Assembly: GCA_958295975.1 (NCBI GenBank)
Contig: OY282446.1
Location: 659,289 to 723,288 of the forward strand
Length of the DNA: 64,000 nucleotides
Origin: Tepidiformaceae bacterium
GTDB lineage: Bacteria; Chloroflexota; Dehalococcoidia; Tepidiformales; Tepidiformaceae
Direction: 5' to 3'
How positions within the stretch are numbered: the first letter of the stretch is position 1; each line of letters begins with the position of its first letter. Under the pieces are notes generated by a model, which was not told where the DNA came from, did not search any database, and saw only the letters and a program-made list of their open reading frames with translations. Shown here piece by piece: positions 44,581-53,278 of the stretch. The position numbers and the translations under genes were made by a program.

Positions 44581-45597
44581 ATGAGCTATACGGGACTGGT
44601 GCTGCACGGCGACCATGTGCGCGATCACGTGGAACAGGCGCAAGCGGGCGAGCGGCTCGGCTTCGCCAGCGGCTGGGTGACGGAGGTGAACGAGCCGGAC
44701 GCGATCACGGTGCTGGCGGCGGCGGCGGCGGGCACGGAGCGCATGCGCCTGGGCACGGGCATCGCGCCCATCTTCCTGCGCGACCCGTATCTGGCGGCGA
44801 TGTCGTTCTGGTCGCTGCAGGACCTGAGCGGGGGGCGCATGACGGCGGGCTTCGGCGTGAGCACGCCCGTGATCGTGGACGGCTGGCACGGCCAGCCCTG
44901 GGGCCGCCCGCGCGCGCACATGCGGGAGTACGTGGACCTCTTCCGACGCATGACGGCGGGCGAGCGGCTGCGCCACGAGGGGCTCTACCGCACGCGCGCG
45001 CCCGCGCTGCCCGCGGCGGACCCGCCCATCCCCGTCTACGTGGGCGCGCTGGGCGAGGGCATGCTGGAGCTGGCGGGGGAGGTCGCCGACGGCGTGATCC
45101 TGAACTACCCCACGGCGACCTCCATCGCGCGCGCGGTGGAGGCCATTGAGCGGGGCATCGCGCGGGCCGGACGGGAGCGTGCGGAGGTGCGCGTGATCGC
45201 CTTCGCGCGCACGGTCCTGCACGAGTCGTACGAGGCCGCCGCCACGCCCATCAGGGAGGAGCTGCTGGCCTACATGATGGCGCCGGTCTACCGCGGGGTG
45301 TTCACCGGGGACGGCTTCGGGGAGGAGTGCGAGACGTTCGCGCGGCGCTGGGAGGCGCGCGAGCGGGCGGAGGCGATCGCGGGCATCTCCGAGCGCTTCG
45401 TGCGCGCCCACGCGGTGGTGGGGCGCAACGCCGGGGAGTGCCGCGAGCAGGCGGAGGCGCTGCTGGCGGCGGGCCTCGACGAGGCGCTGCTCTATCCCGT
45501 CGCGCCCGCGGGGGCGGCGGACCCGCAGGCGGCGGTGCTGGAAACGATACGGGCGCTCGCGCCCCGCCAGGCGGGCGGCGGCTCGCCCGCGCATTGA
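44581..45597 (+). CDS. LLM class flavin-dependent oxidoreductase (F420/FMN type)
   Basis: The 338-residue TIM-barrel protein belongs to the bacterial luciferase-like superfamily. Characteristic segments are LGFASGWVTEVNEPDAITVLA near residue 25 (family strand 1-2), MRLGTGIAPIFLRDP near residue 56, FWSLQDLSGGRMTAGFGV near residue 77 and IPVYVGALGEGMLELAGE near residue 143. Many such enzymes use coenzyme F420, others FMN; the substrate is unknown. The ATG is preceded by GGAGGGGAGG. The TGA stop is part of the putative -35 box of the next gene. Confidence 0.9.
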   Translation: MSYTGLVLHGDHVRDHVEQAQAGERLGFASGWVTEVNEPDAITVLAAAAAGTERMRLGTGIAPIFLRDPYLAAMSFWSLQDLSGGRMTAGFGVSTPVIVDGWHGQPWGRPRAHMREYVDLFRRMTAGERLRHEGLYRTRAPALPAADPPIPVYVGALGEGMLELAGEVADGVILNYPTATSIARAVEAIERGIARAGRERAEVRVIAFARTVLHESYEAAATPIREELLAYMMAPVYRGVFTGDGFGEECETFARRWEARERAEAIAGISERFVRAHAVVGRNAGECREQAEALLAAGLDEALLYPVAPAGAADPQAAVLETIRALAPRQAGGGSPAH

Positions 45598-45623
45598 CTC
45601 CTTCCCCACGCTTCCCCCACTAT
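45594..45623 (+). promoter_or_regulatory. Candidate promoter of the leucine-rich-repeat gene
   Basis: TTGACT (45594-45599) and CACTAT (45618-45623) are 18 bp apart. An upstream ATG at 45622 overlaps the -10 box, which favours the ATG at 45655 as the true start. Confidence 0.4.
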
Positions 45624-45654
45624 GCCGTCAACCCGCGCGGGGGAACGTTCTCAC

Positions 45655-48507
45655 ATGCGTAGCGGATTGGCGGCCGGGAAGCCGAGGCTCTGGATCGTCG
45701 CGGGCCTCGCCGGAGCGCTCGCGCTCGCGCTCGCGGGCCTCGTGGCCGCGCAATCCGCCCCCGGCTCCGGCTCGGGTTCGACGGCGAACGTCGAGGTGCG
45801 CGTCTGGCAGGGCGTCGGCGACGCCGGAAGCCTCTACGTCAGCGCCCGCGCGGCGGGCGGCTCGTGGCGCACGCTCGGCACCGTGCCCCTCGACATGAGC
45901 GGCCTCAGCGCTTCCGGACGCTACCGCTACGGCGACATCTCCCTCGACGTGCCCCGTTCCGGCTCCGACGAAACGGTGACAGTGCAGGTGCGCGTCTGGC
46001 AGGGCGTGAGCAGCACGGGGAGCCTGTACATCAGCGCGCGCCGGGCCGGGGGCTCGTGGCGCGACCTCGGCACCGTGCCGCTCGCGCTGGACAGCCAGAG
46101 CGCATCCGGCGCCTACCGCTACGCCGACACCGACCTTCCCGTTCCCGCCCCGGCGCCGGACGAACCGGCGGCCACGCGCACGCCGACTCCCACGCCAACC
46201 CCCACGCCCGGCCCCGTCACCTGCGTGAACGACTGCCCGACGGCCACGGCCACGGCCACCCCAACCGCAACGCCCACTCCCACTCCAACTCCGACTCCTA
46301 CCCCGACGCCAACGCCTACCCCGACTCCGACGCCTACTCCGACTCCCACGCCCACGCCGTCCGGCGGCGGTGGTGGCGGCGGTGGTGGTGGCGGCGGTGG
46401 TGGCGGCGGAGCAGGCCCCGGCGGTGGTGGCGGTGGCGGGACCGGTCCCGTCGCCTGCGTGAACGACTGCCCGCCCGCTTCGAGCGTGGCGACCGACCGC
46501 GCCGCGCTGATCGCCCTCTACAACGCCGCTGACAGCCAGCACCAGCGCTGGCTCGACGGTTTGGGGTGGAATTCCAATGCACCCCTGGGTGAGTGGGGCG
46601 GGGTCGTCGCTGACAGCAATGGGCGCGTTACCAACCTCGGACTTCGGAACCTCAGGGGCACGATCCCGGCGGAACTGGGCAACCTGACGAACTTGCAGAC
46701 CCTCGACCTGGGCGGCAGCTCGGGTCTTGGCGGGTTGACGGGCGCAATCCCGGCGGAACTGGGTAAGCTAACGAACCTGCAGTACCTCCTCCTGAACGAG
46801 AACCAGTTGACGGGTGCAATCCCGGCGACGCTGGGCAACCTGTCGAACCTGAAGTACCTCAGGCTGGAGTTCAACCAGTTGACGGGCACGATCCCTGCCG
46901 AGTTGGGCAACCTGTCGAACGTGCAGTACCTCTGGCTGTTCGGCAACCAGTTGACGGGCACGATCCCTGCCAAGCTGGGCAACCTGTCGAACGTGACGGA
47001 GCTCTATCTGAGCGGGAACCAGTTGACGGGCGCAATTCCGGCGGCGCTGGGCAAGCTGACGAACCTGCGGGGCCTCAGCCTGCAGGAGAACCAATTGTCG
47101 GGCACGATCCCGGCGACTCTGGGCAAGCTGACGAACCTGCGGACCCTCGGCCTAGATACCAACCGGTTGACGGGTGCAATTCCGGCGGCGCTGGGCAAGC
47201 TGACGAACCTGCAGTACCTCCATCTGGACATCAACCAGTTGACGGGCGCGATCCCGGTGGCGCTGACCAATCTGACCGGGCTGAGTCGACTCAAGGTGGA
47301 CAACAGTCTGTGCGTGGGGCGTGACAAGGCCGTCCAGACCGCCCTCAGGAGCTGGCTCAGCGGCATCAGGGTCACGAACATCGTCGTTCCGCTCTGCCCC
47401 GCCACGGGCACGGCGACTCCAACGGCCACCCCCACATCCCCCGGGGTGGAAGCAGATCGGGCCACGCTGATCGCCTTCTACGACGCCACTGGCGGAGATA
47501 GCTGGAGGCACAGCACGAATTGGAAGACTGACACCCCGCTGAATCAGTGGTATGGGGTTTCGACCAGCGGCAGCGGGCGAGTCAGCGTGATCGATCTGAA
47601 CAACAACTGGGTGACAGGCACAATCCCGGCGGCGCTGGGCACACTGACCGGACTGCGGACTCTCGGATTGGGCCGCAACTCGCTGTCGGGCGCGATCCCG
47701 CCGGAGCTGGGCAATCTGGCCAACCTGCAGCAGCTCTGGCTGTATAGGAACCAGCTGTCAGGCGCGATCCCGCCGGAGCTGGGCAAGCTGACGAACCTGC
47801 TGGGCCTCGACCTGAGCAGCAACCGGTTGACGGGCGCGATCCCGTCGGAGCTGGGCAAGCTGACGAAGCTGGGGCGCCTCCGGTTGGACAGCAACCGGCT
47901 GTCGGGTGCGATGCCAGTGGAACTCGCCAGCCTGGGCAATCTGCGTGATTTTACCATTCGTGGCCAACAGGGTCTGTGCGTGGATACCAGCACCAGCTAC
48001 TACCTGTGGCGCTTTTTGCACGAGCAACGGGCGCTGCTTTCCAGCGGTAGCATCTCGTCCTGCCCGACGGCCACGCCCACGCCTACCCCCACGCCCACGC
48101 CTACCCCCACGCCCACGCCTACCCCCACCCCCACGCCCACGCCTACCCCCACCCCCACGCCCACGCCTACCCCCACCCCCACGCCCACGCCTACCCCCAC
48201 CCCCACGCCCACGCCTACCCCCACCCCCACGCCCACGCCTACGCCTACTCCAACGCCCACGGCCACGCCTACTCCGACGGCCACGCCCACACCGTCGGCA
48301 ACACCCGATCCCACGGCCGCCGCCCGCCTAGCGGGGTCGCGGAAGCGCCCGCCACAGCGGGGCGCGCGCCGTGCGTACCCCGCTAGGCGGGCGGCGGCTC
48401 GCCCGCGCAGGCGCGCCAGGCGGCGGCCAGCAGGGCGCGCGCGTGGATGGCGCCCGGGCAATGGGCCACGACCGCGCGCCCCTCGAACGCGCCGTAGCGC
48501 CGCGTGA
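45655..48507 (+). CDS. Secreted leucine-rich-repeat protein with Pro-Thr linkers
   Basis: The 950-residue surface protein has, in order: a signal peptide (residues 8-35); two copies of a 50-residue beta-rich unit ([20 protein letters not shown] and [20 protein letters not shown]); and a Thr-Pro linker opened by CVNDCP. A poly-Gly tract with a second CVNDCP follows. Next are an N-cap and nine plant-type LRRs ([17 protein letters not shown]), a second cap with five LRRs, and a Thr-Pro repeat. GGGGGAA precedes the ATG. The last 60 residues are Arg-rich, overlap an antisense gene and are probably not native: a TAG one frame over at 48329 ends the gene inside an inverted repeat. Confidence 0.85.
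46185..46362 (+). repeat. Thr-Pro-coding low-complexity repeat, first linker
   Basis: Tandem 6-bp units (CCNACN) encode alternating Thr and Pro, interrupted by CVNDCP. A poly-Gly GGN tract (about 46365-46440) follows. Confidence 0.9.
46620..47280 (+). repeat. 72-bp LRR-coding repeats, block 1 (nine units)
   Basis: Degenerate 72-bp units encode 24-residue leucine-rich repeats with the consensus [15 protein letters not shown]. Neighbouring units are close enough to recombine. Confidence 0.85.
47595..47945 (+). repeat. 72-bp LRR-coding repeats, block 2 (five units)
   Basis: Five further 24-residue repeats of the same type follow a second N-terminal cap, so the cap-LRR module is itself duplicated. 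Confidence 0.85.
48064..48300 (+). repeat. Near-identical minisatellite encoding Thr-Pro, second linker
   Basis: Units of about 12-30 bp built from CCCACGCCTACC recur almost without change to about 48240 and then diverge. All units are multiples of 3 bp, so copy-number change keeps the frame. Confidence 0.9.
48316..48398. terminator. Perfect 22-bp inverted repeat between convergent genes
   Basis: Arms 48316-48337 and 48377-48398 are exact complements around a 39-bp spacer. Each arm contains a TAG at the mirror-image position. The one in the right arm is the stop of the minus-strand gene; the one in the left arm would end the LRR gene if the frame were shifted by one. It is probably a bidirectional terminator that includes both gene ends. 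Confidence 0.65.
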
Positions 48508-51075: not shown

Positions 51076-51149
51076 GCGGGCGTGGTTCAATGGCAGAATG
51101 CGACCTTCCCAAGGTTGAGACGAGGGTTCGATTCCCTTCGCCCGCTCCA
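51076..51149 (+). tRNA. tRNA-Gly (CCC)
   Basis: A 74-nt cloverleaf with encoded CCA (51147-51149). The acceptor stem GCGGGCG pairs with CGCCCGC, the anticodon loop is TTCCCAA (anticodon CCC) and the T loop is TTCGATT. Discriminator base is U, as usual for Gly. Confidence 0.95.
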
Positions 51150-51227: not shown

Positions 51228-51677
51228 TTAGCGGACGCGGATGACCTCGACGTCGCTGTCCTCTGGCGCGCCGCCCGTGAGCACGGTGTGCACGGTGTCG
51301 TTGATGTAGAGCAGGCGACCGTCGAGGGTGACGCTGGCCTGCAGGGAGTATTCGCGGCGCTCGTCGATGCGGTCCGGGTCGTAGGGGATGCGGAAGGCGA
51401 GGGGCAGGCCGCGCGCGTCGGGGAACGCCTGCTCGCCGAGCGTGACGGCGGGGGCGTCGGCGAGGGAGGTGTCCTGCAACTGGACCTCGACGACCGCGCC
51501 CTCGGGCAGCTCGACCGCGCCGCCGCCGAAGAAGACGCGGCCCTCGACGGCGGGACCGTCGGCGAGCATGTCATCCGGGACCGCGGATTCGCCGAGGCCG
51601 AGCGCGTCGCACACGGACGACGCCAGCGCCATGAGGAACAGGAACAGGGCAAGCCCGACGCCGGTCATGAGCGGCAT
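51228..51677 (-). CDS. YbaY-family (PF09619) secreted or lipid-associated protein
   Basis: The 149-residue protein has an N-terminal hydrophobic segment with VGLALFLFLMALASSVCD, in which Cys23 might be lipidated. It then has the YbaY-type immunoglobulin-like domain: VEGRVFFGG, ELPEGAVVEVQLQDTSLADA and the strand YDPDRIDERREYSLQA. Such proteins are envelope lipoproteins of unknown role. No Shine-Dalgarno sequence is present; TAGAAT ends 6 nt before the ATG. Confidence 0.85.
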   Translation of the reverse strand: MPLMTGVGLALFLFLMALASSVCDALGLGESAVPDDMLADGPAVEGRVFFGGGAVELPEGAVVEVQLQDTSLADAPAVTLGEQAFPDARGLPLAFRIPYDPDRIDERREYSLQASVTLDGRLLYINDTVHTVLTGGAPEDSDVEVIRVR

Positions 51678-51750: not shown

Positions 51751-52419
51751 ATGGCGTTCGAACCGGGGGAAGTGATCTCCTACCTCGCGATGTGCGAGGA
51801 GGAGGGATCGAGCCTGCAGCGGGGCATGAATTTCCGCCTGGGGCCGAACCACAGCGTGCTGCTGATGAGCCAGCGCCCGAATGCGCCGTATGCCGATGAG
51901 GTGCGGGATGGCGGCACCGTCATCATCTACGAGGGACATGACGCGCCGCGCGGAGACGATGCGCCCGACCCGAAGGCCGTTGACCAGCCGTTGCGGACGG
52001 CGACGGGGCGGCTGACCCAGAACGGACGCTTCTTCGAGGCCGCGCGCACGAGGCGCGAGCTGGTGCGCGTCTATGAGAAGCTGCTGCAGGGCATCTGGGT
52101 CTGCAACGGCGTCTTCCGCCTGACCGACGCCTGGACGGAGTCGTCCGGCGGGCGGCTGGTGTGCAGGTTCCGGCTGGAGATCACCGAGGCGGACGCGGCA
52201 GGCGCGCCGCAGCAGCGGGAACCTTCCCGCATCATCCCGTCGGTGGTGAAGCGGGAGGTGTGGGCGCGGGATGGCGGACGCTGCGTGCTCTGCGGGGCCA
52301 GCGACGACCTGCACTTCGACCACGAGATTCCGTTTTCGAGGGGCGGCGCCTCGACGACCGAGAACGTGCGCATCCTCTGCGCCCGCCACAACCTGCGGAA
52401 GGGCGCGCGGATCGAGTAG
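51751..52419 (+). CDS. Putative SRA(YDG)-like/HNH endonuclease
   Basis: The 222-residue protein ends in an HNH nuclease: WARDGGRCVLCGASDDLHFDHEIP near residue 170 (given by its conserved parts RCVLCG, DHEIPFSRGG, NVRILCARHN). The N-terminal 150 residues (VLLMSQR...GTVIIYEGHD...VRVYEKL...FRLTDAW...CRFRLEI) follow the order of strands in the SRA/YDG fold that reads modified bases. A modification-dependent (type IV-like) restriction enzyme is a reasonable guess. The amber stop is followed in the same frame by a decayed HEPN-like gene. Confidence 0.8.
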   Translation: MAFEPGEVISYLAMCEEEGSSLQRGMNFRLGPNHSVLLMSQRPNAPYADEVRDGGTVIIYEGHDAPRGDDAPDPKAVDQPLRTATGRLTQNGRFFEAARTRRELVRVYEKLLQGIWVCNGVFRLTDAWTESSGGRLVCRFRLEITEADAAGAPQQREPSRIIPSVVKREVWARDGGRCVLCGASDDLHFDHEIPFSRGGASTTENVRILCARHNLRKGARIE

Positions 52420-52928
52420 CGGCATCTCCGTGATCGGGCGTGGGCCATCGCCCGGGGCGAGGTTCCCGCAGCTGGCCAGCCCCTGACCACGACCGACTAC
52501 CGGCGCGCGATCTCGTCGGCCTACTACGCGCTCTTTCACGCGATCACGCTCTCCTCGGCGTCGCTCTTCGCGCTGGACAACGACTCGCGCTACGAGGCCG
52601 TGCGGTGGTTCCGTCACGGCGACCTGAGGGTCGTCACCGCCTGGATTCATGGCGGCAAGCCGCCCCAGGGGCTGGAACACAGCGTCGGCGCGCTACGGGA
52701 GAACGAGCGCGTCCGCGGCGTCGCCGTCGCCTTCCAGCGGCTGCTCAAGGCCCGCGAGTCCGCCGACTACGATCACTCCGCCGCGTTCAGGAGAGTGACG
52801 TCCATGAACTCGTCAGCCTCGCCCGGGAGGCCGTCGAGCTGGTCGCGGGCCCCGCCTTCGCGGACAGCCCCGCGGGACGCCAGTTTCTCGGGCTGCTGGC
52901 GCTGCGGGCGCGCGGGGGCGGGGCCTAG
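52420..52928 (+). pseudogene. HEPN-like gene remnant, no start codon and one frameshift
   Basis: Directly after the HNH stop and in the same frame, the translation reads HLRDRAWAIARGEVP, then TDYRRAISSAYYALFHAI, as in HEPN-type helical proteins, and continues to ADYDHSAAF. At about 52789 one base is missing; in the next frame the family C terminus resumes (ESDVHELVSLAREAVELV) and ends at 52928. No ATG, GTG or TTG precedes the conserved part. The two lesions mean it is not expressed as a normal protein. Its final TAG shares CTAG with the opposing gene. Confidence 0.7.
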
Positions 52929-53201: not shown

Positions 53202-53278
53202 TGGTAGCGCATAGGGGATTCGAACCCCTGATCTCCGCCTTGAGAGGGCGGTGTCCTGGGCCGCTAGACGAATGCGCC
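53202..53278 (-). tRNA. tRNA-Glu (CTC)
   Basis: Read on the minus strand, a 77-nt cloverleaf with encoded CCA. The anticodon loop CTCTCAA gives anticodon CTC, and the start GGCGCATTCGTCTAGC is typical of bacterial tRNA-Glu. The 1:72 pair is G:U. Confidence 0.94.

Follow-up and report, generated by a model that had tools for sequence, protein, structure and literature searches.

An intact SRA-HNH endonuclease gene and a HEPN-like remnant meet at a rearrangement junction in a Tepidiformaceae genome

In the 64,000-nt stretch of contig OY282446.1 analysed here (the window), an intact SRA-HNH endonuclease gene is directly followed, on the same strand and in the same frame, by a HEPN-like remnant. 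With high probability these are accidental neighbours and not one defence unit, namely a standalone TagI-type enzyme and a HEPN pseudogene that was placed beside it by a rearrangement. This reading is based on the domains, fold and intactness of the SRA-HNH gene, on the junction between the two genes, on the absence of the pair elsewhere and on the gene that regularly adjoins intact HEPN copies, all of which were observed. The eye-catching adjacency in one frame is therewith settled as a rearrangement scar and not as a fused defence gene, and the locus provides a compact example of a slot beside a tRNA gene that takes up restriction-related genes. A small side lead from the locus is a small HEPN module in which the partner belongs to no known family.

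The SRA-HNH gene and its predicted product

The SRA-HNH gene is located at positions 51751-52419 of the forward strand and encodes 222 aa between an ATG start and a TAG stop. The HNH domain (residues 159-222, 52225-52416, +) carries the residues C178xxC181, D190-H191, N205 and C210xxH213-N214, and the Pfam family PF01844 (HNH) was matched at the C-terminus with an E-value of 3.2e-7, above the cut-off. For the SRA domain (residues 1-145, 51751-52185, +), the Pfam family SAD_SRA was matched at residues 46-143 with an E-value of 1.5e-4 and 22 bits, which is below its cut-off of 30.7 bits. A profile of eight SRA-HNH orthologues retrieved the SRA domain of SUVH5 from the PDB at 9e-5 together with HNH proteins, and residues Y47, D49 and Y60 were aligned to the Y-x-D...Y segment of this SUVH5 domain. 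These three residues as well as H191, N205, H213 and N214 are invariant among 71 sequences.

An AlphaFold2 model built from the 71 related sequences reached a mean pLDDT of 88.7. TagI was the best PDB match of the model in Foldseek (E-value 7e-8), followed by the SRA structures of SUVH5, ScoMcrA and UHRF1, with E-values of the SRA matches between 1e-7 and 1e-4. The SRA part of the model showed a TM-score of 0.66-0.69 normalized by SUVH5 length; the whole-chain TM-score against TagI was low (0.42), and the model is not to be relied on for how the two domains are positioned to each other. An SRA fold of the N-terminal domain, for which structure prediction had been proposed as a check, was thereby obtained, and the original prediction that the HNH gene is of the modification-dependent restriction enzyme type is borne out by both sequence domains and by the top fold match. 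The gene at 51751-52419 is thus an SRA-HNH gene for a nuclease of the modification-dependent type, the cleavage preference of which is predicted.

Orthologues in two species of the same genus (G001 and G002) are 73% and 67% identical. Among the three genus orthologues, synonymous changes are far in excess (pS 0.64-0.71 versus pN 0.17-0.21), and the gene is therefore maintained under purifying selection. A search against plasmids gave no match, and a search against phages gave matches to the HNH domain only. In a genome of the same family, the SRA-HNH gene is degraded and interrupted by in-frame stops (L011 / L053, G028:C2:175429-176140).

SRA-HNH modification-dependent endonucleases are known from TagI, ScoA3IV and TbiR51I, and the flipped-base pocket of TagI is formed by two tyrosines and an aspartate (PMC6212794). 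By analogy to the TagI family, from which the sensing of modified cytosine by the SRA domain and the cutting by the HNH domain are inferred, a cytosine of incoming DNA that carries a modification (5mC or 5hmC) would be flipped out by the SRA domain, and the DNA would be nicked or cut nearby by the HNH domain, which probably acts as a dimer. Modified foreign DNA would be restricted as the outcome, and a partner gene would not be required for this enzyme.

The HEPN-like remnant and its damage

Right after the SRA-HNH stop codon the same frame is open from position 52420 and encodes the first part of the HEPN-like remnant (52420-52788, +), which shares 40-47% identity with intact HEPN-like paralogues up to about 52788. 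It retains the R-x6-H motif in the form RESADYDH (52753-52776, +), in which neither the R nor the ADY segment varies among the HEPN relatives. The similarity to the paralogues restarts in the -1 frame at 52812-52913 with 47-50% identity, within a second part (52790-52928, +) which comprises the C-terminal ~40 aa and reaches the normal C-terminus. Genes for the HEPN-like relatives of the remnant lie at other sites of this genome as well as in two further genomes of the genus. With a HEPN profile, E-values of 5e-26 and 7e-6 were obtained for the first and second part, respectively, so that a chance similarity is excluded. The relatives matched PF05168 weakly (7e-4 to 2e-3, under the Pfam cut-off), and HEPN chains of the PDB were likewise matched weakly by the remnant family (0.004-0.04); single-sequence fold prediction of the remnant gave no confident structural match. 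The HEPN superfamily is characterised by a helical bundle with an R-x4-6-H motif; judged from the motif and the weak profile matches, the remnant is likely a member of it.

Both kinds of damage described in the original prediction, i.e. the lack of a start codon and a frameshift at about 52789, were recovered. Intact HEPN copies have ~20 additional N-terminal residues, the codons for which would overlap the SRA-HNH gene and are absent there. The sole ATG, GTG or TTG codon of the HEPN frame within 52420-52788 is a GTG at 52600, located 3′ of the conserved RRAxSxxYYALFH helix. As assembled, the frameshift near 52789 is confirmed as a single-base-type change by the switch of paralogue similarity from frame 1 to the -1 frame. 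Due to the coding-type codon bias of the remnant (GC content of 0.71/0.52/0.89 by codon position) together with its intact R-x6-H motif, the damage is recent. These retained features weigh against the pseudogene reading, as do the weak HEPN matches and the uninformative fold prediction.

The same codon bias and the retained catalytic-type motif, along with a frame free of stops between the end of the HNH gene and about 52788, could also be taken to mean that the HEPN is still functional, with the frameshift being an assembly error and translation occurring via read-through or re-initiation from SRA-HNH. This explanation is improbable, since no start codon is present ahead of 52600 and since the partner gene and approximately 20 codons at the N-terminus have been lost whatever the status of the frameshift. 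In addition, no comparable frameshifts were found in the neighbouring 20 kb. When about 15-20 nearby genes at 28-51 kb of the window were compared with sister genomes, no frameshift was present, the two rows flagged in this comparison being spurious ORFs across a tRNA, and a general indel problem of the assembly is therefore unlikely. A blanket assembly error as the cause of the frameshift was rejected after this comparison. Having lost its start and its presumed antitoxin, the HEPN of the window appears to be dead.

The junction and the search for SRA-HNH/HEPN pairs

The orthologues of G001 and G002 end with an identical TAG stop at the same site, and they are followed by a convergent gltD gene with no HEPN. 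In both genomes the SRA-HNH gene lies about 90-140 nt past the same tRNA gene, tRNA-Gly(ccc), which is found in the window at 51076-51149 (+) and next to which the SRA-HNH gene is held in three genus members. At the DNA level the window resembles G001 and G002 only up to 52421, within 4 nt of the SRA-HNH stop, and the HEPN remnant starts where the homology to the sister genomes stops (52420-52423). The gltD gene of this genome (91% identical) is located at 1.4616-1.4630 Mb, about 0.75 Mb distant. Because the homology ends at the stop codon and gltD lies about 0.75 Mb away, the boundary between HNH and HEPN is a rearrangement junction. The synteny of the displaced gltD with the sister genomes is broken as well, at the gltD 3′ end; neither the missing HEPN 5′ part nor its partner was found beside it.

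Several observations were made on the surroundings of the junction. GC-rich short tandem repeats are located right after the displaced gltD, on the far side of the break in synteny (L193:4015-4300). In genus members without SRA-HNH, the tRNA-Gly gene is followed by convergent gltD with a gap of 0.1-0.9 kb, apart from G007, which has an insert with a C5-cytosine methylase and a GIY-YIG gene (L185). The gap between tRNA-Gly and gltD is a small hotspot (51076-51149; L046, L047, L182-L187), with SRA-HNH in three genus members. Two further genes of the window have their relatives elsewhere in the sister genomes and lie outside the unit: a small YscW-family (PF09619) protein gene at 51228-51677 (-) and tRNA-Glu(ctc) at 53202-53278 (-), just past the remnant. 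Furthermore, the region 45594-48377 is an insertion compared with all sister genomes, with synteny resuming on both sides, and encodes a leucine-rich-repeat protein of 961 aa that contains long Thr-Pro repeats.

According to the original prediction, SRA-HNH and HEPN once either formed a defence unit of two genes or were translationally fused, and the HEPN half decayed here. Both genes are indeed adjacent on the same strand and in the same frame with nothing between them, and HEPN proteins of the PF05168 type sometimes cluster with restriction-modification operons (PMC3710099). However, a fusion left no sign and is already contradicted by the sister orthologues, which stop at the same TAG without a HEPN in two species. 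The proposed check for an intact pair was negative as well: a scan for SRA-HNH in one genome per species yielded 80 loci in many phyla, and a HEPN of the remnant's family was found near none of them (0/80), with a profile that readily detects known copies, nor at any class-level SRA-HNH locus besides the window itself. Among 393 genomes of the class, SRA-HNH was present in 32 and the HEPN family of the remnant in 8, and both occurred only in the genome studied here, i.e. in one genome compared with about 0.65 expected by chance from these frequencies. A former unit or fusion of the two genes is consequently very improbable.

When 53 downstream ORFs were scanned with Pfam (first 25 of 71 families), no recurrent neighbour family beside SRA-HNH was detected; the scan was not exhaustive, with 27 loci having no eligible ORF, and the genes recovered were unrelated except for one PF08780 gene. 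This complete gene of the HEPN type follows SRA-HNH in Leptolyngbya sp. FACHB-60 (L131:4995-6467). Its HEPN differs from that of the remnant and, since it adjoins its own nucleotidyltransferase-like gene, it forms a separate pair and does not favour a unit of SRA-HNH with HEPN. Finally, a programmed -1 frameshift in place of damage, which would fit the similarity kept by the C-terminal part in the -1 frame, has next to no probability, as no slippery heptamer was found near the shift at ~52789 and the intact paralogues are read in a single frame.

The usual neighbour of HEPN and comparison with known systems

Four intact HEPN copies were found, three of them in this genome (G000; a single copy at 1.864 Mb and a tandem pair at 1.443 Mb) and the fourth in the sister species G005; a fifth copy in G004 contains an in-frame stop. 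For every HEPN copy of the genus apart from that in the window (n=5), tandem copies included, an uncharacterised gene for ~130 aa is located directly 5′ of HEPN (L056:3274-4723; L055:3688-5582; L054:3807-4791; L057:3470-4918), with an overlap of a few bases between the two genes in G005. As the ~130-aa gene is present without HEPN in several genus members, it is HEPN that varies at this locus. The ~130-aa gene is restricted to the genus and is absent from more distant HEPN relatives outside it; its product had no match in Pfam, PADLOC or PDB, and no copy was found near the remnant of the window. The claim that the locus is the remnant of a two-gene unit therefore holds in part: the HEPN does derive from a unit of two genes, the other of which has been lost here, but this lost partner is the ~130-aa gene and not SRA-HNH.

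In toxin-antitoxin pairs the antitoxin gene comes first (PMC3710099), and the order of the ~130-aa gene and HEPN resembles this arrangement. It is conceivable, and put forward tentatively, that the pair represents a toxin-antitoxin-like module not described so far, which would belong to this Dehalococcoidia genus and include a new family of antitoxins, and that the window contains an orphan toxin, as a disabled fragment only, from which the antitoxin was lost. For the preferred reading of accidental neighbours, the pseudogene would represent the 3′ portion of a toxin-like HEPN gene, the normal place of which is behind a ~130-aa partner gene. A rearrangement with its breakpoint at the SRA-HNH stop codon would have stripped the HEPN of partner gene and start, and a separate indel of the one-base type would have broken the frame ahead of the C-terminus.

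The intact HEPN loci share with HEPN-MNT toxin-antitoxin systems a small gene directly 5′ of HEPN that overlaps or nearly touches it. In contrast to HEPN-MNT, no nucleotidyltransferase was recognised in the ~130-aa partner, and an adjacent partner is missing in the window. With the HEPN-T (PF05168) type, the family has in common the conserved R-x6-H motif and an all-helical prediction, together with weak profile matches of its intact relatives; however, the family scores under the Pfam cut-off and the copy in the window is truncated and frameshifted. The 222-aa protein is shorter than TagI (6ghs, 285 aa modelled) and only 17% identical to it, and the TM-score of 0.42 indicates that its domain arrangement differs or is mis-modelled. 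The N-terminal SRA domain, the C-terminal HNH domain and the standalone gene are common to TagI and the 222-aa protein, and the SRA-HNH gene is a new sequence of a known, TagI-type standalone kind.
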